IMG/VR virus record: IMGVR_UViG_3300025137_000178
Coordinates: 1-29,945 of that record
Strand: one strand, 5' to 3'
DNA length: 29,945 bases
Origin: a virus
Shown here: one piece after another, positions 1-28,750 of the stretch
How positions within the stretch are numbered: position 1 is the stretch's first letter
Layout of the letters: each line of letters starts with the position of its first letter
The notes under the pieces: generated by a model
What the model saw: the letters and a program-made list of their open reading frames with translations, nothing else
Databases searched by the model: none
What the model was told of the DNA's origin: nothing
Made by a program: the position numbers and the translations under genes

Positions 1-16
1 TATCTAAATAACTCAT
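1..16 (-). CDS. Start of next gene, truncated by window edge
   Basis: The stop codon of the 1615-aa fibre gene overlaps an ATG by one base (TAATG). This is the junction used at five other places in the window. The frame opens with Met-Ser-Tyr-Leu-Asp and then leaves the window. Nothing can be said about function. From its position it could be a fibre chaperone, another fibre or a baseplate protein. The call rests only on the TAATG junction. Confidence 0.4.
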
Positions 17-3000
17 TAAGCATGTACAATAAAGTCATTAGACGGATTAAAGTAAATTTGCCCATTAGAAGCATCTAAGCAATATCCTATTATTCTAGCA
101 ACGTTGCCGGTAGAACCAGGAGCACTATTAAGGGCTAATCCATTAGAAGTTCTAAGAAATAATTTATCACCTACTGCACCTGGGTCATGGTCTAATGTTA
201 CCATACCTTTAATTAACATACCATTGGTGTCAGAGACCGCTCCTAATGCCACTGCTAATAATCCTGTAGATTTAGTATTGTCTGTAGCATTTGCTAATTC
301 CCAATTACCACTAGCATTATAGTGATAAATTTTACCAGCATCCATACTAAGAGTACCTCCAAAGAAAACTACGTCACCTTGGTGATCAGCATCTGTTGTA
401 GAAGTTTTAGCTAATTTATTAGATGTAGCATCTATTGTAGTTGCGGTAACATCATCAAAAGTAACATCAGAGGTTGTAGTTAATCCTTGGTTAATTGCCT
501 TAACTGCCGCTAAATCTGTTAATTCACTGTCCATTAAAGCACCTGCACTGGTTACGTTTGCTGTGTCAGTTACGTCGGCACCATCTTCTACATTTATATC
601 GGATCTGAATTGGGTAAATGTTCTACCTTTAACATTACTACTACCCATTAGCAGGACATCATTAGTAGTTAATGCTTCTTCTGATTTTAAAGCGTTACCA
701 CTTGATTTACCAAAGGTTAAGGTAGCTTGTTTTCCATTTATGTTTGTTTGTAGAGCTGAGCTAGAAGCATTTAATTGTATTAATGTTGCGGCATTATCCG
801 CTTTAGTTCCTTGGGCTGAGGTTGCATAATCAGATGAATCGAAGGCTTTAACTTGTGCCAAGTTTGTGACTTCGGAGTCCATTAAAGCTCCTGCACTGGT
901 TACGTTTGATGTGTCAGTAACATCTGCACTGGTTTCTATTCCATCTAATTTGGTTTTATCACCATTAGCGAAAGCGCCTTCTGAAGGCTTAACTTGTAGT
1001 GTTGAGATTGTTACTCCTTTAACACCCGCTAAATCGGTAAGTTCACTATCCATTAATGCTCCAGCAGCAGTTACGTTTGTTGTGTCTGTTACGTCTGCGC
1101 CATCTTCTACGTTTATATCGCCTCTAAATTGTGCATATGTGCGACCTTTAACATTACTACTACCCATTAGCAGGACATCATTAGTAGTTAATGCTTCTTC
1201 TGATTTTAAAGCATTACCGCTTGATTTACCAAAGGTTAAGGTGGCTTGTTTTCCGTCTATATTTGTTTGAAGTGCAGAACTTGAAGCATTTAATTGAACT
1301 ACAGTTGCTATAGTAGCGTCAACTGCTATGTCATTTGCGTTAGCTGTAATACCAGTACCACCCACAACATTTAAAGTAACTGTTCCTGAAGTGCCACCAC
1401 CTGTTAATCCATCTCCAGCTGTTACACCTGTTAGACCACCTGCTGTAGCTGAGGCTAATGAAGCTGATACATTAGGAAATCCATTAATAGATAAATCTCC
1501 ACTTGCACTTATGTTACCCGAAGCTGTTATGTGAGATGTTGTATTTATATTCCCAGCTACATCTAATTTAGCTGTTGGGGTTGCATCTCCTATACCTACA
1601 TTATCAGTTGAAGCATCAGCATATATTAAGTTTAAATCATTTTCACCAGCGTACTGGAAATCTGCGTTATTTTGTTGTGAGTTATATAAAAATTTATCCC
1701 CAGCATTAGCTTCAAAACCAATACCATTTGTATTTAAGGTTACAAATACATCACTATCAGCAGTAGATGATATAGCGTTACTATTTAATATTAAATCATC
1801 AACTGTTAATGTTGTTAATGTTCCTAATGATGTTATATTTGTTTGTGCTGCTGTTCCTAATGTACCTACTAATGAGTTACCTGTAATGGTTCCTGATGCA
1901 CTTACAGCGGATGCTGTTACATGAGTGGTAGAAACAGAAGTTGCTCCAAAATTATCAGCAAATAAAGAAGAAACAGTACCTGCACCACTAAATAACCACC
2001 CCAAAGAAGAATTATATGTTATTCCGTTAGCCATATTGACTTCTCTAGTACCGTTACTTCCGGTAAACATAAGAAGTTTACTATCAGTAGGAATAACATC
2101 ACCTGCTACCCTTACATAAGGCATAGACGCTTGTGCAGCTTGTTTTACTACACCTTCATCAAGTATTAATACAGTATTAGCTGCTTCTACTGTTGCTTGT
2201 GTAGTAAGAGTTGGAAGCTGTAAATATGACCCACTTAATTGTACATTAGCTGTTGTTGTAAGGGTATTAGTTGTAGTATTACCATCTACTATTAAATTAT
2301 TAGCTCCCGGATCTTCAGAACTACCTACTTTTAAACCACCTATAAATGCACCATAATCTTCTACAAGTAATACTCCATCTCCTGGGTCTGTGTTGGTAGA
2401 ACCTATTCTTACTGCATTTAATAAAGCAAAATCGCTTACTGTTAAATCATCTCCTACAGTAACATCCGTATCAAATGCAGCAGAACCCGTAAATAGGATA
2501 GAAGGCCCACCTCCCGGGGAACCTATTATTTTAATTCTTTCAATGGGTTCTTCACTTTTAACTGCTGATACCCTTAATGATAGACTTCCTTGTATACCTT
2601 GGGTACTTACTTCATCTACAAGTGCTACTATTTCAGCAGCCGATCCTGAAACATCTATTTGGGTATAGCTTGAACTGTCAATAGAAAAATTAACTCTACC
2701 TACTTCATCTCCAGGGTCAGCTCCCTTAGTTGTTCTAGAGCCTCTAATTAATATTTCTCCTCCTCTATTGTCATCTCTAATTTCTTTAAAGTCAAATGCC
2801 CTAATAGGAGTATCAGTACCTATCCCAATTCGTGGGTTATTTCCAGATTTAGAAATAAATAACACATCTACTAAATCTGTAGTTGTATCTCCTACAGAAA
2901 ATTTAACAGCACTACTTCCTGTGTCAAATTTAATTTGGGCAGAAGCACTAGCGAAATTAAATGATCCAGAAATTGAGGAAGAAGCATCATTATTAAAGAA

Positions 3001-4863
3001 GTAAATCGCAGGGTTTCCTGATATAGTAACGCCTGTTCTTTCTTGCCTGTCGGCAACTTGCATCCTACCTATTACACCTAATGTTCCATCGTCATCCGTA
3101 CCTCCATGTCCCCCATCTCCTCCTGTAGTAGGGTCATAAAATAAACTTGAAGTATATCGAATATAATTAGCAGTTGAAATAACTCTTCCATTTCGATCTA
3201 GTGCTACTCCTAATACACCCATCCTTTGGGTGTTTTTTTGAGGAGTAACGTAAGTTCTAAGTTGGGAAGATTCTAAAAATTGTCCTGCTTTATAGCTAGT
3301 AGCTTGGGGGTTACCCCCAAATATTCCATTTTGTAAATAACCCAATTGGGCATCTTGAGCAACTCTTAGACCATTTGAGGTATTAAATGTTAAAGCAGCC
3401 TCACCATTAATAGTAGTACCACCTGTTGCTGTAAGTATATTGTCGTTAGTATTGTTAGTAATTGCTGTTACAGCCCCACCACCACCACCGCCTCCATAAG
3501 AACCTGTGTGGTATAATTCTCCGGTTGCCGTATTAATTAATACTACATTGTTAGGGGCATGAGATGCTGAAAGTGAAGTTGAGGCAAATAATGCTCCACT
3601 TGCACTTATAGCACCTGACGCTGTTATGTTACCCTCACCCATAGTAACGTCTGATATAAGTTCTAAACTACCAGTTATGCCAACGTTAGTCCCTGTGTCA
3701 TGTATGGTAAGGATATTATTATCATTGTACCCTAAGTGTAAAAAATCTCCGCTATCTATTAGGAATCCATTGTCACCTCCCGGGGAGCCAAAGGATATCC
3801 CCCCATTAGTAGGTGTAGTGGTTGTAGGTAATTGAAGGTGTTTAGTAAAAGTTGTTTCACTTGCACTTATTACAGATCCAGTAAAAGCAACATTTGTAAT
3901 AACACTATTGCCTAATAATGTAGTGGTTCTATTGTTAGAGGAGAATCTAATTTCTGTTGAGTTAAAATCATTAGCAAGGTTTTGACCATCTACTAAATAT
4001 TTTGAGGCATGAATATCTAAACTAGAACTTATGTCTGCAGAAGAAGTAATTGCTACTGTAGTAATAGATCCTTGATCCATTACTTGTTGTAAAGTAGGGG
4101 TAGGAGTACTACCACCTGATCCATAAGAACCTGTGTGGTATAATTCTCCGGTAGTTGTGTTAACTAACACTACATTGTTAGAAGCATGAGATGCCGAAAG
4201 TGAGGTTGAAGCAAATAAATTATTACTTGCACTTATGCTACCTTGTACTGTTAATGCTTCACCAGGGGTTGGGACGTTTATACCTAACTTAGCATCACCA
4301 AGGGAGCTTGATATAAAATTTGGAGAAGTACCTGCTGTAAATTGGGTTTGTATGTTAGCATTATCTCTTAAAACTAATCTACCTTTATGTGCATTTGTCC
4401 CACTACCTACTCTTGTAAGTTGAACTACGTTATTACTATCGGCATCTTGTAATGCAATAATAGCTGAGTCGTCTGTGTTTCGAGCTATAAGTTTTAGTGC
4501 TACTACTTCAGATCCTGAAATTGCACCACTCGCACTTACAATTGATCCTGTAATAGGACCATCTACAAATAAAGATGCGCCTTGAGCATCGTCAAATATG
4601 AACCCATCGTCGCCATCAAAAGCACCACCGTTATTAAATTGAATGTTTTGATCATTTCCTCCAGGAGTACCACCACCTCCACCTGAACCCCCACCAAAAG
4701 AACCAGTGTAATAAAAAGCCCCTGAAGAAGTATTATAAACTAATACTTTTTCTTCTACACCCGGGGATTGAGTGTTTCCACCCGTGTTAGTAATTGCAGA
4801 AGCAGTAATACCTGCTATGTGAGCATTACTTCCTGATATTAATACTTTTCTCCAAGATCCCAT
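16..4863 (-). CDS. Giant tail fibre / receptor-binding protein (1615 aa)
   Basis: This is a very long Ser/Thr/Gly/Asn-rich beta-repeat protein, typical of phage fibres. It opens with W-R-K-V-L-I-S-G-S-N (residues 4-13), a motif shared with the two fibres encoded just upstream, so this end probably docks on the baseplate. A poly-Gly linker follows at about 57-65. Modules with the pattern N-T-x-x-G-x-x-Y-x-T-G-S occur near residues 44-55, 235-248 and 445-457. Many S-A-S-G-x-I-S-A-S-G type strands follow. A duplicated block lies at about 1188-1280 and 1360-1453. The last 85 or so residues form a distinct beta-rich end (K-S-T-G-L-L-A-V-A-L-G, then G-N-V-A-R-I-I-G-Y) that is the best candidate tip or receptor-binding domain. 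A putative promoter element lies 20 bases before the ATG. The fibre call is firm; receptor and symmetry are unknown. Confidence 0.88.
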   Translation of the reverse strand: MGSWRKVLISGSNAHIAGITASAITNTGGNTQSPGVEEKVLVYNTSSGAFYYTGSFGGGSGGGGGTPGGNDQNIQFNNGGAFDGDDGFIFDDAQGASLFVDGPITGSIVSASGAISGSEVVALKLIARNTDDSAIIALQDADSNNVVQLTRVGSGTNAHKGRLVLRDNANIQTQFTAGTSPNFISSSLGDAKLGINVPTPGEALTVQGSISASNNLFASTSLSASHASNNVVLVNTTTGELYHTGSYGSGGSTPTPTLQQVMDQGSITTVAITSSADISSSLDIHASKYLVDGQNLANDFNSTEIRFSSNNRTTTLLGNSVITNVAFTGSVISASETTFTKHLQLPTTTTPTNGGISFGSPGGDNGFLIDSGDFLHLGYNDNNILTIHDTGTNVGITGSLELISDVTMGEGNITASGAISASGALFASTSLSASHAPNNVVLINTATGELYHTGSYGGGGGGGAVTAITNNTNDNILTATGGTTINGEAALTFNTSNGLRVAQDAQLGYLQNGIFGGNPQATSYKAGQFLESSQLRTYVTPQKNTQRMGVLGVALDRNGRVISTANYIRYTSSLFYDPTTGGDGGHGGTDDDGTLGVIGRMQVADRQERTGVTISGNPAIYFFNNDASSSISGSFNFASASAQIKFDTGSSAVKFSVGDTTTDLVDVLFISKSGNNPRIGIGTDTPIRAFDFKEIRDDNRGGEILIRGSRTTKGADPGDEVGRVNFSIDSSSYTQIDVSGSAAEIVALVDEVSTQGIQGSLSLRVSAVKSEEPIERIKIIGSPGGGPSILFTGSAAFDTDVTVGDDLTVSDFALLNAVRIGSTNTDPGDGVLLVEDYGAFIGGLKVGSSEDPGANNLIVDGNTTTNTLTTTANVQLSGSYLQLPTLTTQATVEAANTVLILDEGVVKQAAQASMPYVRVAGDVIPTDSKLLMFTGSNGTREVNMANGITYNSSLGWLFSGAGTVSSLFADNFGATSVSTTHVTASAVSASGTITGNSLVGTLGTAAQTNITSLGTLTTLTVDDLILNSNAISSTADSDVFVTLNTNGIGFEANAGDKFLYNSQQNNADFQYAGENDLNLIYADASTDNVGIGDATPTAKLDVAGNINTTSHITASGNISASGDLSINGFPNVSASLASATAGGLTGVTAGDGLTGGGTSGTVTLNVVGGTGITANANDIAVDATIATVVQLNASSSALQTNIDGKQATLTFGKSSGNALKSEEALTTNDVLLMGSSNVKGRTYAQFRGDINVEDGADVTDTTNVTAAGALMDSELTDLAGVKGVTISTLQVKPSEGAFANGDKTKLDGIETSADVTDTSNVTSAGALMDSEVTNLAQVKAFDSSDYATSAQGTKADNAATLIQLNASSSALQTNINGKQATLTFGKSSGNALKSEEALTTNDVLLMGSSNVKGRTFTQFRSDINVEDGADVTDTANVTSAGALMDSELTDLAAVKAINQGLTTTSDVTFDDVTATTIDATSNKLAKTSTTDADHQGDVVFFGGTLSMDAGKIYHYNASGNWELANATDNTKSTGLLAVALGAVSDTNGMLIKGMVTLDHDPGAVGDKLFLRTSNGLALNSAPGSTGNVARIIGYCLDASNGQIYFNPSNDFIVHA
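505..783. repeat. Direct repeat copy A inside the giant fibre gene
   Basis: About 280 bases closely match 1024-1302, with a constant offset of 519 bases (173 codons), so the reading frame is kept. The core around 630-755 is nearly identical between copies. It encodes the protein block containing G-K-Q-A-T-L-T-F-G-K-S-S-G-N and A-G-A-L-M-D-S-E-L-T-D-L-A. Confidence 0.9.
1024..1302. repeat. Direct repeat copy B inside the giant fibre gene
   Basis: This is the partner of 505-783. Differences are mostly single bases, concentrated at the outer ends. A shorter third copy of just the A-G-A-L-M-D-S-E segment lies between them, at about 850-935. Confidence 0.9.
3494..3612. repeat. Direct repeat module, copy 1 (fibre gene)
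   Basis: About 120 bases match 4121-4239 with an offset of 627 bases (209 codons). Both encode L-F-A-S-T-S-L-S-A-S-H-A followed by N-N-V-V-L-[VI]-N-T-x-T-G-E-L-Y-H-T-G-S-Y-G. A Gly-rich linker follows in each. Confidence 0.88.
4121..4239. repeat. Direct repeat module, copy 2 (fibre gene)
   Basis: This is the partner of 3494-3612. A more diverged protein-level version lies near the fibre N-terminus (residues about 38-60). The module therefore appears three times in the N-terminal third of the protein. Confidence 0.88.
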
Positions 4864-4883
4864 GTGTTGTTAATTATTTTCCT

Positions 4884-4891
4884 ATAAATAT
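4884..4891 (-). promoter_or_regulatory. Putative late promoter element before giant fibre
   Basis: The coding strand reads AATATTTATAGG, 20 bases upstream of the ATG at 4863. It lies just past the stop of the 55-aa gene. It matches the ATATTTATA element seen at the other block starts. Confidence 0.55.
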
Positions 4892-4892
4892 T

Positions 4893-5060
4893 TTATTTTT
4901 GAAGAGGGGGTGGAGGGGGTACTTCAGAAAGTTTTTTATAATTGCTTTCTAATTTTTTTAATACATTAGAAACAAAATGGGCATCTTTACCTTGTAAAGT
5001 TGAATTATGAAGGGACGATATTAAAAGACCACATTCATTTACATCTAATTTAATACTCAT
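4893..5060 (-). CDS. Small protein preceding giant fibre (55 aa)
   Basis: A 55-codon frame begins M-S-I-K-L-D-V-N-E-C and ends after a run of five prolines (P-P-P-P-P-L-Q-K). It fills the only gap of more than 200 bases between large genes. It has its own upstream ATATTTATA element and an A-rich leader. The central part (L-x-x-x-E-C-x-x-L-I-x-x-L, then V-x-x-x-x-K-L) aligns without gaps to the 62-aa protein at 9058-9246. That gene also sits immediately upstream of a fibre. The protein is predicted mainly helical. Function is unknown; a fibre-assembly or regulatory partner is conceivable from position only. Confidence 0.72.
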   Translation of the reverse strand: MSIKLDVNECGLLISSLHNSTLQGKDAHFVSNVLKKLESNYKKLSEVPPPPPLQK

Positions 5061-5077
5061 AACGATTTATTTTATAT

Positions 5078-5085
5078 ATAAATAT
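5078..5085 (-). promoter_or_regulatory. Putative late promoter element before 55-aa gene
   Basis: The coding strand reads ATATATTTATATAT, 17 bases upstream of the ATG at 5060. It lies in the 32-base gap after the 816-aa fibre gene. Confidence 0.55.
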
Positions 5086-5092
5086 ATGGTTT

Positions 5093-7543
5093 TTAATCAA
5101 AAACACCATAAATATAAATGTTACTGTCGGCTCCCGCAGGATTCGATGCTGTATCTATAAACCATGAACCTAAAGTAGCTAGTGCCCCAGATTCATAAAA
5201 AGCTAAATCTTGGTCTATGTTTTCGGGGTTTACGGCTGTTGCCCCTACTGAGAGTTTTACTGTTGAGATTAATCCTATATTTTCGGCACTTGCTGTTACT
5301 TCTCCAATAGTAGGAATACCTGTTGGTTTTGTTGGGGAGTGCCAATCCGATCCCATCCCTTTAGCAAGACCCCAACCCGCGGCTTCCCAAGTTGTACCTG
5401 CAATCTGGGTGGAATTTGCGTTTAAATGGAATATTGCAGAGCCTGACCCTGCTGTAAATGAAGAAGTTTGGACTAAAAATCCTCCAGCATCATAATTAAA
5501 AGGGACTGTACTATTACTTCCACTATTTAAAGTAATAAACTTATCAGTAGTTTGAAATTTATCAGCATGAATTGCTGTTACATTACTATCATTTATTACT
5601 CTAAAATTACCCTTAATTAAAATATCATCTTTAAAAGTATAAGCAGCAGTCCAAGTTTTATTTATGTTAAGTTGGGCATTATTTAAACCAGTAGAATTTA
5701 AGGCTGAATTATTATTATAAAATACTTCTTGAGATCCTCCTACGCTATTACCCCCATTATGATTTTGTTGAATAGAAAGGGGGTTGGAATCTGCTCTTGC
5801 TAATGTAATAGAACCAGATCCAGTTACTGCAAAACTAGTGTCTAAAAAGAGATCTGATCTATCGTTAGCACTAAGGCCAAAAGTTAATCCATTCCCTGCT
5901 AAATTAGAGTTTAAAGCTAATTTACCTGCACCCATAATACCATCAGTAGTAGTTAAACCACTTTGGCTAGGGTTTAGGTTTATACTACCCGAGCCATCTA
6001 GTGCTCCCCCAAAACTTCCTGAAAGGCCATTTCCTAAGAAAGTGTTATTAACCTTTAAATCGCCCGTAGCAAAAGCCAAGCCGGAGTTTGATGCAAGATC
6101 AACGCTAATTTGATCCTTACTTCCATCAAATTCTAAACCTGCTTGAGGTAAACCATCAGCTAATGCAAGGGTTGTTGGAACAGTGGTTTCAACTGTATTA
6201 CCACTAAATAAATTAGCATCAGATATTTCAGGAACTTCTAATCCTGATTTGTTAATATTTCCAGTAGAAGCTCCATTAACGTTCATAGGAAATAATTTAA
6301 CACTCATAGTAGTTAATGACTCCCCATTCCATTCAGGATTATTTGTACCATTAGGATTTCTCATAAGAATACCATCTCCACGTACAACTCCTTGGCTGTC
6401 ATTTAATGTTACTCCATATAATGATGAAGACATATCTCCAAACACATTACCTGCAAAACTCCCTGAGAAGTTTCCTGTGAGTTCATCTCCTACAACTGCA
6501 GTAGAGCCTGATATTTTGAATAAAGGACCATCTCCATAAAATGCTGAGGGTAAGTTTGTATAACCTAATCCAAAATCTTCATGAGCTCTTATTCTTAATT
6601 GAAATCTTTCTCCTTGTTCAATTGGAAAGTTATCGCTACTTGCTACTTCAAAGGATCCAGAAAATGAAGCAGAAAGAGGAAGAGGATTTAAACCCGACCA
6701 ACCATTCATACCTTGGAATACTGTAATTGGAATTGAAATTTCATCAGAATCTATAAATTCAGCAGAACCTCCTGTAGCATATCCTCCAGGTTGGTATCTT
6801 CTTAAGGTAGCTCTAATGTCTTTATTTGGAACTAATGAACCTGTAAAGAAGAAAGGAATAACAAATGATGCTGTAATGCCTGATCCTACAGGCATCGCTC
6901 TATTAAATTCTATAAAATCACCATTACTTGTATCTAAGTAAGTTACTTCAGATTGGGAACTATAAAAACCAGTTGCTGCAGATCCTGTAAAAGTAAAGGG
7001 AACATTTGCTGCTGTCTGCCCCTCCATATTTTGGAATTGGTTATCAATAGGAAGTGTTCCTCCCGTAAATCCTTCTAATGTTGATCCTGTCCTAATGTAA
7101 TTATTATTAGTAGCTGCTTGATCACTACCTGATTGGAATCCTTCAAATTTTAATACGGGATCAAATGCTATACTAGAGGTTATTTCAAACCCTCCGTGGG
7201 GTTCGTTTTTAAATACTACAGGGAATGTTGTTAAAGGGGGGTCAGCTGTAGGAATTGGAATAGGATTAGCTACAGTAGAGGCAGAAATCGGAAGGTTGGG
7301 TACATTTACACTTTCACTTCGTAAAAATAAATTAGGGTTAGTGCCTCCTTGATGTTTATTGTTTATAGAGCCTGTAGTTTGGAAATGTCCCCTATCACCA
7401 CTAGATCCTGAAGAAGCAAATACTAGTCTTCTTCCTGTATTAGGAGTAATATAAGGATCTAAAGCAATTGAAGAAGTTAAATGATTAACCTCAAAATTAG
7501 ATCCTGAGATTAGGACTTTTTTCCATTTTGGTGATCCACTCAT
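5093..7543 (-). CDS. Tail fibre protein (816 aa)
   Basis: This is a Ser/Gly/Asn-rich fibre. It starts M-S-G-S-P-K-W-K-K-V-L-I-S-G-S-N, carrying the same docking-like motif as the fibres at 16-4863 and 7547-9046. The N-terminal half includes a globular beta region (about residues 150-370). The middle has G-x-G-L-x-x-x-L-A-x-x-S type repeats with D-T-S-F-A-V-T-G-S-G-S. The C-terminal third (F-K-D-D-I-L-I-K-G-N-F, then L-N-S-G-S and G-G-F-L-V-Q) aligns with the 499-aa fibre upstream, so the two are paralogues. The start is four bases after the preceding stop. A GTATTTATA element lies inside the last codons of that upstream gene. Likely a baseplate-attached adhesin. Confidence 0.85.
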   Translation of the reverse strand: MSGSPKWKKVLISGSNFEVNHLTSSIALDPYITPNTGRRLVFASSGSSGDRGHFQTTGSINNKHQGGTNPNLFLRSESVNVPNLPISASTVANPIPIPTADPPLTTFPVVFKNEPHGGFEITSSIAFDPVLKFEGFQSGSDQAATNNNYIRTGSTLEGFTGGTLPIDNQFQNMEGQTAANVPFTFTGSAATGFYSSQSEVTYLDTSNGDFIEFNRAMPVGSGITASFVIPFFFTGSLVPNKDIRATLRRYQPGGYATGGSAEFIDSDEISIPITVFQGMNGWSGLNPLPLSASFSGSFEVASSDNFPIEQGERFQLRIRAHEDFGLGYTNLPSAFYGDGPLFKISGSTAVVGDELTGNFSGSFAGNVFGDMSSSLYGVTLNDSQGVVRGDGILMRNPNGTNNPEWNGESLTTMSVKLFPMNVNGASTGNINKSGLEVPEISDANLFSGNTVETTVPTTLALADGLPQAGLEFDGSKDQISVDLASNSGLAFATGDLKVNNTFLGNGLSGSFGGALDGSGSINLNPSQSGLTTTDGIMGAGKLALNSNLAGNGLTFGLSANDRSDLFLDTSFAVTGSGSITLARADSNPLSIQQNHNGGNSVGGSQEVFYNNNSALNSTGLNNAQLNINKTWTAAYTFKDDILIKGNFRVINDSNVTAIHADKFQTTDKFITLNSGSNSTVPFNYDAGGFLVQTSSFTAGSGSAIFHLNANSTQIAGTTWEAAGWGLAKGMGSDWHSPTKPTGIPTIGEVTASAENIGLISTVKLSVGATAVNPENIDQDLAFYESGALATLGSWFIDTASNPAGADSNIYIYGVFD

Positions 7544-7546
7544 ATT

Positions 7547-9046
7547 TTATGCGTATATAAATACAGAGCTTTCGTTAGTCGTTGCTCCCGTTGTTATAGC
7601 TAATTGACCTACCCTTGAGTTAGCAACACCACTAGTACCAAATGTTGGGGTTGTATTAATTAATACAGACTCTATACTTGCGGTAACCATAGTAGTAACT
7701 ATAGCAGCATGAGATGCTGATGTTATAGTGTGGCTTTCTGAGTTAATACCCTGTAATCTATTTGAAACCCCCCACCTAATACTGTGGGAGTCGTAAAATA
7801 AAAATGCACCTTGCCCTTGGTCGGTGTTGGTAGATTGGACAACAAAACCTCCATCACCTCCTGTTGTTCCCCCCGTTGAACCACTATTTATTAGTACAAA
7901 TTGATCAGCAATATTTAAATTTTCAGTTTCAATAGAAGCACTTATTAAAGTCCCAGAAACTGTAAAATTACCTTCAACATTTACATCATTTTGGAAAGTA
8001 AAGTCTCCTGTTAAAGTAGTATTTAAGTCGTAAGTAAATGTTGGATTATTTATTAATTTTTGAGAAAATCCACCTCCACTTTGAAGACTTGAAGTTTGAA
8101 GATCAGCCTCAGGAGTAACTGTTAAAGTTAAATTTGAAGATCCTGTTTGAAATATAACTCTATTAGAAGAGGTAACTGCAAAATTTGTATCAACTGCTAA
8201 TACACTGTTAGCTGTACTATATTCTAATCCATCACCAGGTAAACCATCAGCTAATTTAAGCTCATCCGAAGCAAGGGCTAAACCACTATTAGTAGCAAGA
8301 TCTATAGCAATTACACCAGTAGAAAAAGATAACCCATTTCCTGCTATTGATGAATTAATTGCTAATTCATCACTACCTGTAGTTAAACCTGAAGTGCCCC
8401 CAGGAGTAAGGGCTATACTCATAGAAGTAAAATTATCAGTACCTGTTCCTGAAAAGTAAAGGCCTTGGTTAGCTAGTGTTGAAGCTAATCGTAAACCACC
8501 ACTTTGGAATTCTAATCCCCCATTGGAAGCTGTTGCTACCGTTATTGTAACAGGTTGGTTTCCATTGTATGAAAAAATTGCTCCCGAAGAGGATGCAATA
8601 CCATTAGCACCTACTAAAGAATTTTCTAAAGTACCTATTACTCCTGTTAATCCTGATCCGTCTCCTGCAAAACTACCTGAAAAAGTACCTGCAGCTGTAC
8701 TACTTGAAAATACAAGTTGATCACTAGTAGCATTATAAAATAAACTACTTGTAGCCTCTATTCCTGTAGAATCAGCATTCCTAAAAAGAACTTGGGAATT
8801 ATTTAATACGGCGTTGGGAGTGCCCGAAGCAGAAATATTAAAAGCACTAAGACCTGTTTTATCTAAAAATAGTTGATTACCTTGACTTGCTGTAAAAAAT
8901 ATAGATCCTGTGCTAAAAAAGCGTCCTGTTACCGTGTCCCTAAAAATTACTTCAGATTTATCCGTAGGGGTACCTGTTACAGAAGCTGTAATTGCTGCTA
9001 CGTGGGCATTAGATCCCGATACTAATATTTTACGCCATACTGCCAT
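7547..9046 (-). CDS. Tail fibre protein (499 aa)
   Basis: This fibre begins M-A-V-W-R-K-I-L-V-S-G-S-N-A-H-V, nearly matching the N-terminus of the 1615-aa fibre. Next comes D-T-V-T-G-R-F-F-S-T-G-S, a variant of the N-T-x-x-G-x-x-Y-x-T-G-S module. Then S-G-S-F-A-G-D-G-S-G-L-T-G, a segment I recall from many marine phage fibres. The C-terminal half shares its order of motifs with the 816-aa fibre (F-x-x-D-V-N-V-E-G-N-F, L-I-N-S-G-S, G-G-F-V-V-Q). It starts 11 bases after the 62-aa gene with no promoter element between, so the two are probably co-transcribed. Confidence 0.86.
   Translation of the reverse strand: MAVWRKILVSGSNAHVAAITASVTGTPTDKSEVIFRDTVTGRFFSTGSIFFTASQGNQLFLDKTGLSAFNISASGTPNAVLNNSQVLFRNADSTGIEATSSLFYNATSDQLVFSSSTAAGTFSGSFAGDGSGLTGVIGTLENSLVGANGIASSSGAIFSYNGNQPVTITVATASNGGLEFQSGGLRLASTLANQGLYFSGTGTDNFTSMSIALTPGGTSGLTTGSDELAINSSIAGNGLSFSTGVIAIDLATNSGLALASDELKLADGLPGDGLEYSTANSVLAVDTNFAVTSSNRVIFQTGSSNLTLTVTPEADLQTSSLQSGGGFSQKLINNPTFTYDLNTTLTGDFTFQNDVNVEGNFTVSGTLISASIETENLNIADQFVLINSGSTGGTTGGDGGFVVQSTNTDQGQGAFLFYDSHSIRWGVSNRLQGINSESHTITSASHAAIVTTMVTASIESVLINTTPTFGTSGVANSRVGQLAITTGATTNESSVFIYA
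7557..7564 (-). promoter_or_regulatory. Putative promoter element inside end of 499-aa fibre gene
   Basis: The coding strand reads TGTATTTATATAC, 13 bases upstream of the ATG at 7543. It overlaps codons for the last residues (V-F-I-Y-A) of the upstream gene. It is the weakest member of the set, with G instead of A at the first position. It could be chance codon use. Confidence 0.35.
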
Positions 9047-17943: not shown

Positions 17944-20757
17944 TTATTGGGTCTTATAAGAAACTAATCCTAAAGCTGTTCCAACTTTGTTACCATCTAA
18001 TTCTACTACTCCTCCTCTTTCAACTGCCGCTACTAAACGTTCTAATAATTGAACTGTTTTTTCATTTCCTCCAAATCCTAATGATGATGCTCTACTTAAA
18101 GGTACTACAGCTTCAGGTTCTCCGCCTTCACCTATTAATGCTGTAGTTGGGCTTGTTACGATACCACCTGTAGCAAGTCCAATTTCTGGGGGAGCACTTT
18201 CAGATTCTCCTGTTCCAAATTCTGTACCTAAAGCGTCAACGTCTGTTCCTTCTTCTAAGCCTAAAGCATCCTCAACCATACCTTTTATGTCAAGCTCTAA
18301 TCCTGTGTCAAATCCTAAGAAACCAGCTATACCATTAATTGCTCCTAAAATAAGATCTATACCTGCTTGAATTGGGGATAATATTATTCTTATAAGACCT
18401 GCACCTATTTTTTTAAACCCTCCACCTATTTTTTCAAATGCTGATTCAAAATTGCCTGAAAAGATATCACCAATGCCACTAGCTATGTCAGCAACACCAC
18501 TAAACATATCTAAAAGACCACCTAAACCACCCATAACCGCCTCTACCCCAGCAGTAATAAGAGATATTGAAGGAATTATCAAAAATTCTATTACTGAACC
18601 TATTGCCCCAAATATATCTATTCCTTCACTAGCCTCACCAAATATTTCTCCTAGTTGTGCTTTTACATTATCAAAAGCATTCATTAACTTTTCTATAGGA
18701 GGATTTAAAGCATTCATAATAGGTTCTATTATTGCTGTAAGGATATTTGCTGTCCATTTAAGAGCAGCCATTATGGGAGTTAAAGCTAACATTAATATAT
18801 TCATAAAAATATCTAAAATGGGATTTAGTATTTGAAATATAGCATTTAATGCTGGTTCTAAAATATCTATAAGCACATTTACTATGGGCATTAAAGCACT
18901 AGCAATTTGCATAAATAGATCTTGAATTTTATCTTGTACCGCTGTAAATTTTTCAGCAACTGAGGCAGATTCTAATTGGTTTAAAAGACCTTTTTCAGCA
19001 AGTTCTTGTTGCTTTTCTTCTGTTAATAAACCTTTTTCTTTTAATCTGTTATATTCTGCTTGGGCCTCTGACATAGATTTAATGTTAGTACCAAATGCTT
19101 CTTGTACAGATGCTAGTTTTTCTTGCTCAACTAAGGCATTTGCTAACTCATCTTTAGTCATGCCAACGGCAGCTGCAATTGCTTCTTGTTCTATGCGATT
19201 CATATCACCAAACTCAGCAGCAGATCCTACTTGTTTTGTAATTTCTTTAGCAACTGTGGCTAAATCATTATCTAAAGCCGCTTGTCTAGCCTTTTCAAGA
19301 TTAAGATCTTTACCTAATAACAATTCAGCTTCTAATTCTTTAGCTATTGAGCCTTCAAAATCTAGTAAACTATCAGCAATGCTTTCTACTTTACTTTGTT
19401 CAACACCTAATAATTTAGCTTGATAAACTTGATTAGCTAATTCTTTAGTATTTCTACCCGCAGATAATAGTTGAGAAGCTGATGCTTTGCCTAATCCTTC
19501 TTGAATTTCTTTTACACTTAAAGCAATACCATTTTGGTTATTTAACTCCATAGTAACTTCTGTTACATCTGCTAATTGGTCCTTAATGGTAGTTCCAGTA
19601 ATCATAGCATTAGAAGCAAACATACCCATTGCTTCAGCAGATAATCCTGTTCTTTCTGAAATTGAAGCAAATTCGGCTGCAAATTTACCTGAGAATTGGA
19701 CTGCTGTACCAAATTCTTTATTTAACGACTGTTGAGCTGCTACAACATCTTTAGTACTTACTAATAAGTCACCTGATAGCCCCGCTGCGTCATTAGCTCG
19801 TTCTACTAATTTTTGTCCTTCGGCTGCGGATACTCCAAATTCTTTTGCTAACTCTCCAGATGATTTATCTAGTTGAGTAAATGCTGAAACTAAACTTTCG
19901 ACTGCAAATGCTAATAGGGCGGCCGGACCTAAAGCTTTAGTTAAATTTTTACCTAAATTCCCAGCAAGGTTTTTTGCAACTTTAAATTTATCACCTAAAC
20001 CTGAGGTGATGTCTCCTGATTCTGTTAGTTTTGAGGCAAATGATCTTGAATCTGCTACAGCATCCTTAATACCTAGTTTTTCTTCTAGGCCTCCCAGCCC
20101 AAGGTTATTTAAAACTGATCCAAGATTATCTGCTACATCTCCAAGTCCTATACCAGACTCTCCTAAATTTAAAGCACTTTCTATATTCCCGGCTCGACGT
20201 TCGATTTCGGCCATATTCTCAGCTTCAGCGTCTAATTCAGCATTAATTCCTGCAAATATGTTTCCTAAATCTAAAGCAGCTTGTAAATCATCTTCTGAGA
20301 TGAGTCCTTTTTCGGCTGAATCTACTAGTGCATCTTCTAATTCTATTCTACCTGCTAAGGTATCATTAATAGCTTCTTCACTTCCTAAGGTAGCTTGAAG
20401 AAATTGTTCATATTCAGTTTGTAAACTATTTGTAGCATCCGCAAGTTTAAGTTTACTTTTTTGAATACTCTCAAGAGTTTTTTCTCCTGAAATAACGTCG
20501 GAATAACTGTCTGTTATCCCTTTTGCTGCACTTGCTACATCTTCAAACGCTTTAGCAGTTTCTGAAGCTGTAATAGAGTTTATATTTAGTGCTTTAGATG
20601 CTTTTTTAACTTCACTAGTATAATCCCTAGAAAAGAATAAAACATCTCTTTGGGCATCTGCTAGACTTAAAAGTCTTTTTAAATTATCCTCCTGAGCACG
20701 GCCTGCCTTTTCAGTTTCCTCTCTATACTCTTTTGCTTTTTTAGGATCTAAAGACAT
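17944..20757 (-). CDS. Tail tape measure protein (937 aa)
   Basis: The N-terminal 200 residues are strongly helical and charged. Long hydrophobic alpha stretches follow (about 285-305, then 650-850) with repeated I-L, A-L and G-G-L patterns. The end has the common tape-measure signature L-A-T-G-G-I-V-T-S-P near 861-870, then I-G-E-G-G-E-P-E-A-V-V-P-L (about 875-887). The protein sets tail length, occupies the tube lumen and is expelled during DNA injection. At about 1.5 angstrom per residue, 937 residues predict a tail near 140 nm, longer than T4 (590-aa gp29). It follows the tube and gp26-like genes, the usual place for a tape measure. An ATATTTATT variant promoter element lies 16 bases upstream. 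Confidence 0.9.
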   Translation of the reverse strand: MSLDPKKAKEYREETEKAGRAQEDNLKRLLSLADAQRDVLFFSRDYTSEVKKASKALNINSITASETAKAFEDVASAAKGITDSYSDVISGEKTLESIQKSKLKLADATNSLQTEYEQFLQATLGSEEAINDTLAGRIELEDALVDSAEKGLISEDDLQAALDLGNIFAGINAELDAEAENMAEIERRAGNIESALNLGESGIGLGDVADNLGSVLNNLGLGGLEEKLGIKDAVADSRSFASKLTESGDITSGLGDKFKVAKNLAGNLGKNLTKALGPAALLAFAVESLVSAFTQLDKSSGELAKEFGVSAAEGQKLVERANDAAGLSGDLLVSTKDVVAAQQSLNKEFGTAVQFSGKFAAEFASISERTGLSAEAMGMFASNAMITGTTIKDQLADVTEVTMELNNQNGIALSVKEIQEGLGKASASQLLSAGRNTKELANQVYQAKLLGVEQSKVESIADSLLDFEGSIAKELEAELLLGKDLNLEKARQAALDNDLATVAKEITKQVGSAAEFGDMNRIEQEAIAAAVGMTKDELANALVEQEKLASVQEAFGTNIKSMSEAQAEYNRLKEKGLLTEEKQQELAEKGLLNQLESASVAEKFTAVQDKIQDLFMQIASALMPIVNVLIDILEPALNAIFQILNPILDIFMNILMLALTPIMAALKWTANILTAIIEPIMNALNPPIEKLMNAFDNVKAQLGEIFGEASEGIDIFGAIGSVIEFLIIPSISLITAGVEAVMGGLGGLLDMFSGVADIASGIGDIFSGNFESAFEKIGGGFKKIGAGLIRIILSPIQAGIDLILGAINGIAGFLGFDTGLELDIKGMVEDALGLEEGTDVDALGTEFGTGESESAPPEIGLATGGIVTSPTTALIGEGGEPEAVVPLSRASSLGFGGNEKTVQLLERLVAAVERGGVVELDGNKVGTALGLVSYKTQ

Positions 20758-20790: not shown

Positions 20791-21090
20791 TTATTTTTTA
20801 GATGCCTTTGTATTAAAAGTAGAAGATTTAGACGATTTAGCATAATCCGGTAAATTGGATCTATCGGGGTTAGCTAAATCTACATTAGTTTTACCAGATT
20901 TAGATCCTTTTGAAGATTTTTTATAAGCATCTGACTGTTGTTTTCTAGCTTCTGCTATCTGTTGATACGTAAATTTACGTAACCAAATAGGCATATCATA
21001 TATCGTAAAGTAATCATAACCCCCATTACCGTAGTAAACGATTTCGTGAATTTGAGTAAATAAGGCTTTTCGATACTTAGGCGTCAGGCC
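20791..21090 (-). CDS. Downstream half of putative frameshift pair, gp51-like (99 codons, no own start)
   Basis: The frame stays open from just after the T-run at 21091-21097 to a TAA at 20791. The first in-frame ATG (20994) would give only 67 residues. The 32 codons before it read as a well-structured segment (F-T-Q-I-H-E-I-V-Y-Y-G-N-G-G-Y-D-Y-F-T-I) running straight into M-P-I-W-L-R-K-F-T-Y-Q-Q-I. I associate this combined pattern with gp51-like or tail-chaperone proteins of marine T4-like phages, from memory. There is no ATG, GTG or TTG in those 32 codons. A +1 or -2 shift on the upstream message would make a fusion of about 342 aa. The C-terminus is Lys/Ser-rich and probably disordered. 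Alternatives: an independent 67-aa protein from 20994, or a homopolymer error. Confidence 0.75.
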   Translation of the reverse strand, partial: GLTPKYRKALFTQIHEIVYYGNGGYDYFTIYDMPIWLRKFTYQQIAEARKQQSDAYKKSSKGSKSGKTNVDLANPDRSNLPDYAKSSKSSTFNTKASKK

Positions 21091-21820
21091 AAAAAAAGTT
21101 AACGGTCACTGGAAGAGATGCTTCTTCCAAGGTGCCGTTACTACTCTCAAATGTAAATGTTAAATCAATGTCTGGTTGGAAACTTTTAATATATTCCCTT
21201 AATGCTCTAGAGTCTCTGGCAAGCATGTAATTATCTACAAACTCCCTAACAGCGGATTTTTCTTCATTTCCGTCTATTGAGGTAATCATATGCTTTAATC
21301 TAGTAGATAATTCAAATGATCCAGTTTTATCAAGTCTTTTAAGCCCTTTAATTTCTTGCTTAATTGCTTTATCGTCTTTATTATTAAGTAATTTAAACTC
21401 AATAGTAGCTTTAGTAGTAGGTAATGTAAAAGAAAATTTATTTATACCTTTTTCTAATTTAGACTCGTCTAAATATCTAGGTTCTAAAGTTGCCAGATCT
21501 ACTGTAACTTCTTCTTCTTTATGAATAAATGTATAGTCTTTACCATAACCTAAAATACGTGATGCCACCATTACTGCGTTTTTATCGCCTACTATAAGGT
21601 CATCATAATTGATTTTTGATACAATCAATGACTTCATCAAACGATCTAAGACCGTGCCATCTTTAATGTAATTTTGGTTGGTAAGAATGTCTTCTTCTTT
21701 AGCGGTCATGTACTTCATTTCGATAGTACCGCTAGATAAGGGATTATCTTCGGGATAGATTAAACCTTTTGAGGGTAGTTCTACTACCTCTGTTGGGAAC
21801 TTAAATTTTTCGTCACTCAT
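21077..21820 (-). CDS. gp26-like baseplate/tail assembly protein (247 aa), probable chaperone G-equivalent
   Basis: The start is placed at the second ATG (M-S-D-E-K-F-K-F-P-T-E-V-V-E-L-P-S-K-G). The upstream ATG at 21880 lies inside the terminator hairpin and adds an implausible leader. The pattern P-S-K-G-L-I-Y-P, M-T-A-K-E-E-D-I-L-T (about 39-48) and a conserved-looking end in N-F-F-W-P-D-A are what I recall from T4 gp26-type proteins. The gene sits between tail tube and tape measure, where most long-tailed phages encode tail-assembly chaperones. Its last codons contain seven T residues at which a shift would enter the 20791-21090 frame. It is soluble-looking, with no membrane segment. Both gp26-like and chaperone readings may hold. 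Confidence 0.8.
   Translation of the reverse strand: MSDEKFKFPTEVVELPSKGLIYPEDNPLSSGTIEMKYMTAKEEDILTNQNYIKDGTVLDRLMKSLIVSKINYDDLIVGDKNAVMVASRILGYGKDYTFIHKEEEVTVDLATLEPRYLDESKLEKGINKFSFTLPTTKATIEFKLLNNKDDKAIKQEIKGLKRLDKTGSFELSTRLKHMITSIDGNEEKSAVREFVDNYMLARDSRALREYIKSFQPDIDLTFTFESSNGTLEEASLPVTVNFFWPDA
21091..21100 (-). promoter_or_regulatory. Putative +1/-2 ribosomal slippage site (AACTTTTTTT, then GG)
   Basis: Frame zero reads AAC TTT TTT TGG CCT GAC GCC TAA and stops four codons past the T-run. A +1 step gives TTT TTT then GGC CTG ACG CCT AAG, which stays open for 99 codons; a -2 step enters the same frame with one extra Phe. A -1 step meets TGA within three codons, so a lambda-type -1 shift is excluded. 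Confidence 0.6.
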
Positions 21821-21911: not shown

Positions 21912-22400
21912 TTAGAAGTTCAATACTGCGTAGTCAATCGCAAGTGTAAGTGAAATTTCTTGAACGGCATCAACATTTTCGTAGTTATAATCTCCGAATT
22001 GAGCTGCAGTAATAAGAGCGCCTTTAAGCACCCACTCAGAAACAACATCACCTACAGGACCTAGTACATTCAGTGTTAAATCCTTTTTGTAGAAATCGGA
22101 ATACCCGTCTCTACCTGTTACAGATTCGTGTCCCAAACGTACCCACTCCATGACTGCTTGAGCACCAGAAGGTGTAATTGGATCATAAAGTGTTAAGGTT
22201 ACATCATCCCAAGTAGTTTTACCTTTTATATTACGCAGAACGTTAATATAATTTAAGGTAATCTTATTTTGGGTAAGACCTATTGATGATAATCCTCTTA
22301 CCATGTAAGTAGGCATTCCATCCATATATAGTATGAACCGATTTTGTTGTTTGGGTTCAAATGCTGTGAAAAAAATTTCGTTTGAATCTAATACTGCCAT
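21912..22400 (-). CDS. 19: Tail tube protein, gp19-like (162 aa)
   Basis: The length is almost exactly that of T4 gp19 (163 aa). The order of blocks fits the family: R-F-I-L-Y-M-D-G-M-P-T-Y at about 21-32, I-T-L-N-Y-I-N-V near 47-54, W-D-D-V-T-L-T-L-Y-D-P-I near 64-75, then V-M-E-W-V-R-L-G-H-E, and a terminal strand L-T-L-A-I-D-Y-A-V-L. It forms the inner tube through which DNA passes. It follows the sheath gene, as in T4. It has its own promoter element and a strong terminator, consistent with a separately and abundantly transcribed gene. Confidence 0.93.
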   Translation of the reverse strand: MAVLDSNEIFFTAFEPKQQNRFILYMDGMPTYMVRGLSSIGLTQNKITLNYINVLRNIKGKTTWDDVTLTLYDPITPSGAQAVMEWVRLGHESVTGRDGYSDFYKKDLTLNVLGPVGDVVSEWVLKGALITAAQFGDYNYENVDAVQEISLTLAIDYAVLNF

Positions 22401-27427: not shown

Positions 27428-28750
27428 TTATCCTGCTGATACTAAAAGTATCTTTTGACCATCTAAATTACCCCCAGTTCCTGTGCTTTGGGTGGTAAAT
27501 AGTCTTCCAGCTATTCCTGGGTCAGCTGTAGGTAAACCAGGGAGAGACATTTGAGCAAATGAACCAGTACCACTTGCACTTATATTGCCACTAACCGTTA
27601 GTCTTTCTGTAGGGTTAGGGTCATTGATTCCAATAAATCCATTTGAACCTGTAATAGTAAAGTCATTATTTTCAGCAAATCCTTCGTCTCTAGCTATAAT
27701 AAATGAACCTGAGTCTTGGCATACCCCTACTGAAACATTTTGGGGTCCTGGGGTTGTGGCATGTTCAAAATGTATATACGTGTCATTATTAGAACCATTT
27801 TGAGAACGTATTTCAAATATAGCGTCTCCATTAGTTCTCCATTGTAGTGTATTATTTCCTGTATTTTCTAGGTATTTAAGATCTGTGTAACCACTTACCC
27901 TAAATCCATTAGTGCTAGCAATAATATTTTTAGTAGTTCCGTTAATATATAAGCTACTTCCAGATAAATTACCACTTGCGCTTATATTATTTGAAGCTGT
28001 TATATTTCCACTTGCATTTATACCATCAATGTAAATATTATTCCATCTTCTACTAGTAGATCCTAAATCATATGATTTATTACCATTAGGTTGTAGTGCA
28101 TTTGCGAATACAATTTCTGCACCATTTGCTTGTATGTGGGGAGTGTTATTACCTGTAGAACCAAATCCACTTAATAATAGGGTGCCAGCGTCTCCGGGGG
28201 TAGTTATACTTCGTTTAAGCATTATTTCCCCACCACCATCCCAAGTTCCTACTCTAGGACCATCAACCGTTAAACGAGTACGATAATCATCACTTTGATT
28301 ATATTCTACTTGTATAAATTGGCTAGAGGTTTCTGGGTTGGATATTCTAAGACTACTAGCACTAATATCACCACTTGCACTTATTATTGAAGCGGTAATA
28401 GCAGTTGTAGTAGAAGATCCTTGGGATGTTACTTCAGCAAGAGTAGGAGTTGTAGTAGAAATTCCTACATTAAAAGTGCTCCCATCACCCTTAGTTAGTG
28501 TTAAATTAGGATTAGAATATGAAGCAGTTGTTAAAAGTGAACCCGTGTCTTGAGTCGGACCTTGGGGACCTATTGGTCCCGTTGGTCCTGTATTTCCTTT
28601 AACACCTGGTGCTTGGATCTGAACTACACTAGTAGATCCCTGATTAACCGTAATAGGGGTATTAGTAGTTCCTATACTTACCCCAGTATTTTGTTGTGGG
28701 GTAATAGTAACCGTATTGGTTGTAGTAGAAACTGTGACCTTATTAGACAT
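27428..28750 (-). CDS. Collagen-like fibre in whisker position (440 aa)
   Basis: The N-terminal 48 residues are Thr/Val/Gln-rich. Then come six G-X-Y triplets (about 49-66: G-V-K-G-N-T-G-P-T-G-P-I-G-P-Q-G-P), a short collagen-type trimeric stalk. Beta-strand repeats follow with S-A-S-G-D-I-S-A-S-S patterns like those of the large fibres. Next come G-S-T-S-R-R-W-N-N-I-Y-I-D-G (about 229-242) and an end reading L-D-G-Q-K-I-L-L-V-S-A-G. It overlaps the gene before it by eight bases (ATGTCTAA). It precedes the neck operon, where T4 has the whisker protein gene wac. A neck fibre is suggested from position; a tail fibre is possible. Confidence 0.82.
   Translation of the reverse strand: MSNKVTVSTTTNTVTITPQQNTGVSIGTTNTPITVNQGSTSVVQIQAPGVKGNTGPTGPIGPQGPTQDTGSLLTTASYSNPNLTLTKGDGSTFNVGISTTTPTLAEVTSQGSSTTTAITASIISASGDISASSLRISNPETSSQFIQVEYNQSDDYRTRLTVDGPRVGTWDGGGEIMLKRSITTPGDAGTLLLSGFGSTGNNTPHIQANGAEIVFANALQPNGNKSYDLGSTSRRWNNIYIDGINASGNITASNNISASGNLSGSSLYINGTTKNIIASTNGFRVSGYTDLKYLENTGNNTLQWRTNGDAIFEIRSQNGSNNDTYIHFEHATTPGPQNVSVGVCQDSGSFIIARDEGFAENNDFTITGSNGFIGINDPNPTERLTVSGNISASGTGSFAQMSLPGLPTADPGIAGRLFTTQSTGTGGNLDGQKILLVSAG

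Follow-up and report, generated by a model that had tools for sequence, protein, structure and literature searches.

Frameshifting in tail-assembly chaperone genes is a classic conserved recoding event and goes mostly in the -1 direction. For these chaperones, shifts of -1, -2 and +1 are all on record, and that of the haloarchaeal myovirus HSTV-2 is very likely +1, so a +1 tail chaperone was proposed earlier (PMC5009743). In phage T4, gp26 and gp51 are listed as hub assembly chaperones; gp51 is required yet absent from the finished particle, and it has been described as needed for hub assembly, not as a chaperone of the tube and the tape measure (PMC3004832). Being required but missing from the final particle agrees with a chaperone role for gp51. 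In a literature search that left most subscription papers outside its scope, no prior report of a frameshift in gp26/gp51-type genes was found.

The locus analysed here lies in a 29,945-nt stretch of viral DNA (IMGVR_UViG_3300025137_000178), hereafter the window, and all features of the cassette are on the minus strand. Two overlapping frames, G and T, sit between a gp19-like tail tube gene directly upstream of G (21912-22400; phrog_4542, 1.7e-23) and a tape measure gene directly downstream of T (17944-20757; phrog_167, 7.5e-13). The pair has the same position in phages immuto, SP-15 and LIS04. G is a gp26-like tail-assembly chaperone ORF of 247 aa at 21077-21820, with its ATG at 21820 and its stop codon at 21077-21079, and its 3' end reads AAC TTT TTT TGG CCT GAC GCC TAA. 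The slip site TTT TTT T(GG) occupies 21091-21097, with the P-site TTT at 21094-21092 and the A-site TGG at 21091-21089. The seven T residues noted earlier at 21097-21091 were present, and the separately assembled contig L006, 99.6% identical, had the same run. T, the +1-frame C-terminal domain, comprises 99 codons from GGC plus a stop codon (20791-21090) and has no start of its own. Its first ATG is at 20994, giving an ATG ORF of only 67 aa (20791-20994), and the 32 codons before it, counted from GGC, contain no ATG, GTG or TTG. When TGGC was read as a single step, an open G-T fusion of 342 residues was obtained, and this GT (20794-21820) is the inferred product of a +1 shift. A -1 shift in the window runs into TGA within three codons. 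The short ATG ORF, the start-less codons, the fusion length and the immediate stop in the -1 frame were thus all as first described. The overlap of 14 bases reported in the earlier note is correct if the count begins at GGC (21090) and ends with the G stop codon (21077), that is, the dual-coded segment GGCCTGACGCCTAA at 21077-21090 with the TAA of G at its end; the T frame is, however, already open from 21105 (to 20791) and so opens 26 nt upstream of the G stop codon. Those requirements of a lambda-like G/GT organisation that can be read from the sequence, namely a position between tube and tape measure genes, an overlapping start-less second ORF and a conserved slippery site, were met.

Several other properties of the window were recorded. 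A search of the window for tRNA genes found none. CTG is among its rarest codons (6 of ~9,600), yet T begins GGC CTG. Before the starts of the minus-strand genes, Shine-Dalgarno (SD)-like sequences are few and the DNA is AT-rich, which fits the expectation for Bacteroidota hosts. Positions 16-9046 and 27428-28750 encode four long proteins with repeated S-A-S-G / I-S-A-S-G motifs, which are probably tail fibre or adhesin proteins.

Scanning IMG/VR with the window gave at least 600 relatives, the best 80 of which were read. Further scans were started from Microcystis phage Mel-JY01 and the uncultured phage LR756508, and 264 loci were classified in all, ~150 distinct ones falling into the +1 class; SP-15, Atu_ph07 and RM378 used as scan queries returned only themselves. 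Nearly all of the best 80 of the at least 600 IMG/VR relatives carried TTTTTTTGGCCTGA at the end of G together with a T frame at +1. The same layout was found in the isolates Flavobacterium phage immuto, Microcystis phage Mel-JY01, Rhodothermus phage RM378, Bacillus phage SP-15, Listeria phage LIS04 and Streptococcus phage GXN1. Relatives in metagenome-assembled genomes were mostly in Bacteroidota bins, and the site was kept there. The T-run or a variant of it, both frames and their relation were retained in ~150 distinct viral contigs, and frame 0 beyond the site (WPD) was itself conserved. Some relatives have chance start codons inside the T frame. In the deposited genomes L002 (4230-4460), L005 (4220-4430), L088 (3717-4000) and L089 (3700-3940) the T frame was either unannotated or started at an internal codon.

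Outcomes that would have refuted the proposal had been named beforehand, and none was found, except in L191 and L196 (1501-2320 in each), where the G stop codon is closely followed by an ATG that opens T in another frame. In L191 the slip site itself is degraded, reading TTC TTG TAT. A separate start seems to have replaced the frameshift in these two relatives, as would be expected of a functional module for which more than one route of expression exists.

The part of T upstream of its first ATG was under purifying selection, with a dN/dS of 0.19 and values below 1 in 199 of 199 pairs, and many of the conserved T residues fall within these 32 codons. With ~150 contigs, the L006 identity and the purifying selection on T, the arrangement of the two frames is not due to chance. 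Synonymous changes at the slip codon were counted on a tree, allowing for shared ancestry. The P-site Phe codon was TTT in all 144 Phe-bearing relatives (a count that leaves out one cyanophage sequence), with no TTC and no inferred change between TTT and TTC. On the same tree, 7 to 25 changes were inferred for six other Phe columns, 12 to 35 for columns of Tyr, Asn and Asp, and 2 for the first Phe codon of the slip-site pair.

The earlier note had left the direction as +1 or -2, and from the window alone both are equally possible, since UUU re-pairs on UUU either way. A -2 shift, which would insert one extra Phe at the junction, is documented for phage Mu (PMC5009743). The relatives, however, leave only +1 of the two. 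Eleven distinct relatives have TTC TTT TGG, and GXN1 has TTC TTT CGT; at these sites a -2 shift would require tRNA-Phe to re-pair on UCU, whereas a +1 shift places it on UUU or UUC. The site of LR756508, TTT CTA TTC, likewise fits +1 at UUU (onto UUC) and not -2. Moreover, the combination of a slippery P-site codon that ends in U with a slow codon in the A site is reminiscent of prfB and other +1 sites (PMC10885494). The +1 direction is therefore best supported, because the TTC TTT TGG relatives exclude -2 through P-site re-pairing, and we regard a -2 shift as unlikely. It is very unlikely that RNA polymerase, rather than the ribosome, slips on the T-run and produces a mixed mRNA population. 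Seven or more T residues are indeed present in the window and in most relatives, but interrupted or shortened runs occur where both frames are kept: TTTCTTTGG in immuto, L032 and L077, TTCTTTTGG in L181-L193 and TTCTTTCGT in GXN1. The homopolymer is broken by the variants TTTCTTT and TTCTTTTGG, and what is strictly conserved is a UUU or CUU codon before UGG, not the length of the run; the immuto site, for instance, reads TTT CTT TGG. The interrupted runs argue against transcript slippage and equally against a sequencing error. We give next to no probability to a single uninterrupted gene that such an error, or decay into a pseudogene, has split into two frames. Homopolymers are error-prone and T4 gp51 is an in-frame G-T fusion, but the same break recurs, in varying sequence surroundings, in ~150 contigs drawn from numerous metagenomes and in the genomes of isolates, and the WPD of frame 0 is itself conserved.

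T could also be an independent gene read from the internal ATG at 20994 (67 aa) or from a non-canonical start such as CTG. Separate starts are present in L191 and L196, one could be used in some -1-frame relatives (Cygsa01), and T often begins with GGC CTG. On the other hand, the 32 codons before the ATG are selected as protein, and the slip codon would need no synonymous constraint if T were initiated separately; we give this possibility little credence, if marginally more than polymerase slippage. CTG as the start codon of T was considered and rejected, as it is not conserved and many members of the Microcystis-type family have CTA or CTT. The preferred reading remains a +1 shift by the ribosome. 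As for stimulators of this shift, no conserved RNA structure near the site was found in 21 relatives, the fold of the window RNA (z -0.75) gave no stimulatory structure and an Rfam search gave no match. An SD-like stimulator in the +1 class was also rejected, being present in 5% of sequences.

In a second group of phages the T frame opens in -1. Cyanophages carry, after gp26, a small gene with the annotation 'gp51, baseplate hub assembly catalyst', and although gp26 and this gene are annotated as separate, the break lies at the homologous Phe-Phe and they are apparently joined by a -1 shift. The heptamer xxT TTT TTC was found at the homologous place in ~78 cyanophage-type sequences; the preceding Ser codon is AGT or TCT, with its T kept. 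The same heptamer occurs in Stenotrophomonas phage Moby, Nitratidesulfovibrio phage SRB7757, Pseudomonas phage PA5oct, Vibrio phages K575 and Bakedbeans and Agrobacterium phage Atu_ph07. A clear slippery heptamer is lacking in Cygsa01 and also in Escherichia phage FEC14 (Ackermannviridae; L293, 1800-2000), where gp26 is succeeded by an unannotated -1-frame T and the site reads GAG ATT TTC. Of 77 sequences (L094, L100-L179), 94% had an SD-like GAGGG or AAGGG ~9-13 nt before U UUU UUC. This spacing is near that of SD-like elements stimulating -1 shifts; a conserved Glu-Gly-Leu could also account for the cyanophage GAGGG. Synechococcus phage S-SCSM1 (L093, 3150-3220) has TCT TTT TTC but its T ORF is in +1, unlike the other cyanophages read, which is possibly an indel or a sequencing error.

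Profile and structure comparisons were used to relate G to known families. G matched phrog_150 'baseplate hub' at 1.8e-7, and its profile, compared with one combining cyanophage-type gp26, T4 gp26 and the N-terminal region of gp51, gave 99.2% probability over the full length (hhalign); the G and gp26-family profiles both end at the FF motif. G of the window scored 15.4 bits against PF12322 T4_baseplate, below the curated cut-off of 24.5, and the SP-15 protein, which passes the PF12322 cut-off, matched it at 1e-11. G and T were folded separately, not as one GT chain. The AlphaFold2 model of G (pLDDT 91) matched the SP-15 baseplate hub subunit with a TM of 0.85 and many other proteins whose names identify them as baseplate hub subunits or assembly chaperones (Foldseek); no match to the model was found in the PDB with Foldseek, nor did a sequence search of the PDB give one. 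Judged from these profile alignments, G is homologous over its full length to T4 and cyanophage gp26. Similarity to lambda G or T was not detected by hhalign (probability 0.1-0.2%), a comparison of low sensitivity made with single lambda sequences. The G model also matched a protein of Leptospira phage LE4 (BFVD A0A343LED6, 9e-5), and the T model had its top match, though a non-significant one, in the consecutive entry A0A343LED7, a hint that this phage has the G/T pair as well.

For T, shuffled controls were used because hhalign values are single comparisons. The T profile scored 44.3 against small cyanophage gp51 (best of 150 column shuffles 17.9), and small cyanophage gp51 scored 53.7 against the C-terminal extension of T4 gp51 (shuffled maximum 16.2). 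Window-type T compared directly with T4 gp51 was not significant, with a probability of 4% alone and 91% when T of both classes was pooled. No significant fold match to the T model was found with Foldseek. The PF12322 profile aligns over its full length with residues 1-206 of T4 gp26 and 1-201 of gp51; the two T4 proteins therefore share one domain, to which gp51 adds a 48-residue extension. T is accordingly homologous to the last ~48 residues of T4 gp51, with the link running through cyanophage gp51. The term 'gp51-like' that had been applied to T thus holds for those residues and for the small cyanophage gp51, but not for the N-terminal 201 residues of T4 gp51, which are a second gp26-like domain.

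We consider it very probable that the cassette is a G/GT-type tail-assembly chaperone expressed by programmed +1 ribosomal frameshifting. The expectation that a frameshift cassette of unusual direction, with a protein of gp26/gp51 type, is conserved at the G/GT position was supported, although frameshifting, its efficiency and the chaperone function are inferred and there are no protein or ribosome-profiling data. Most ribosomes would translate G to its own stop codon and yield the 247-aa protein. Some would stall at codon 243, with tRNA-Phe paired to UUU in the P site and UGG occupying the A site; a slip of this tRNA by one base forward, again onto UUU, would make GGC the next codon and append T, giving GT of 342 aa. 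By analogy with lambda (PMC5009743), the partner of the G part would be the tape measure protein, and the T part would bring in the tube protein. In T4 this module takes the form of gp26 (G only) and gp51 (a G-like domain with T in frame), and in cyanophages that of gp26 and the small gp51. It is also likely, though we hold this less firmly, that T4 gp26 and gp51 represent G and GT of T4-type phages in general, made by a +1 shift in this lineage, by a -1 shift at U UUU UUC in cyanophages and others, or by gene duplication in T4, with an own T start in a few relatives; the Phe-Phe break would be fixed while the direction changes. The earlier note had suggested this role for the proteins of this lineage; that was supported, and its reach is wider, extending to cyanophages and several other T4-type phages in the -1 frame. 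The gene pair, joined in different ways, thus occurs across a large group of T4-related viruses, in which it had been classed as two distinct baseplate genes. If true, this reading would give a role and an evolutionary origin to T4 gp26 and gp51, whose contribution to assembly is to this day called contradictory or unknown. It would also explain a stretch that public phage genomes leave without annotation or provide with a wrong start, and it would supply many +1 cases with a clean UUU UGG site in which the determinants of shift direction could be studied.

Compared with lambda gpG/gpGT, the cassette shares the position between tube and tape measure genes, the start-less second frame and, by inference, a shift close to where the first ORF ends and the G and G-T products. 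The lambda shift is -1 and there is no detectable sequence similarity, whereas here the inferred shift is +1 at UUU UGG in a gp26/PF12322-like family. T4 provides the homologous domains, G corresponding to gp26 and to gp51 1-201, and T to the last ~48 residues of gp51 via cyanophage gp51, but there the two are separate genes on opposite strands and no frameshift is involved. The phage Mu tail chaperone reaches the same +1 frame by a -2 shift, a direction unusable here by the relatives with TTC TTT TGG. As at the +1 sites of prfB (CUU UGA) and Listeria phage PSA (CCC UGA), the P-site tRNA would slip one base forward before a slow codon; different from the prfB, PSA and HSTV-2 sites are the sense A-site codon UGG, the slippery UUU and the lack of a detected stimulatory structure. 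In the Kyanoviridae, gp26 and the small gp51 present the same two domains in the same order, with T in a shifted frame and a homologous Phe-Phe break, but T is in the -1 frame after U UUU UUC and an SD-like GAGGG lies upstream.
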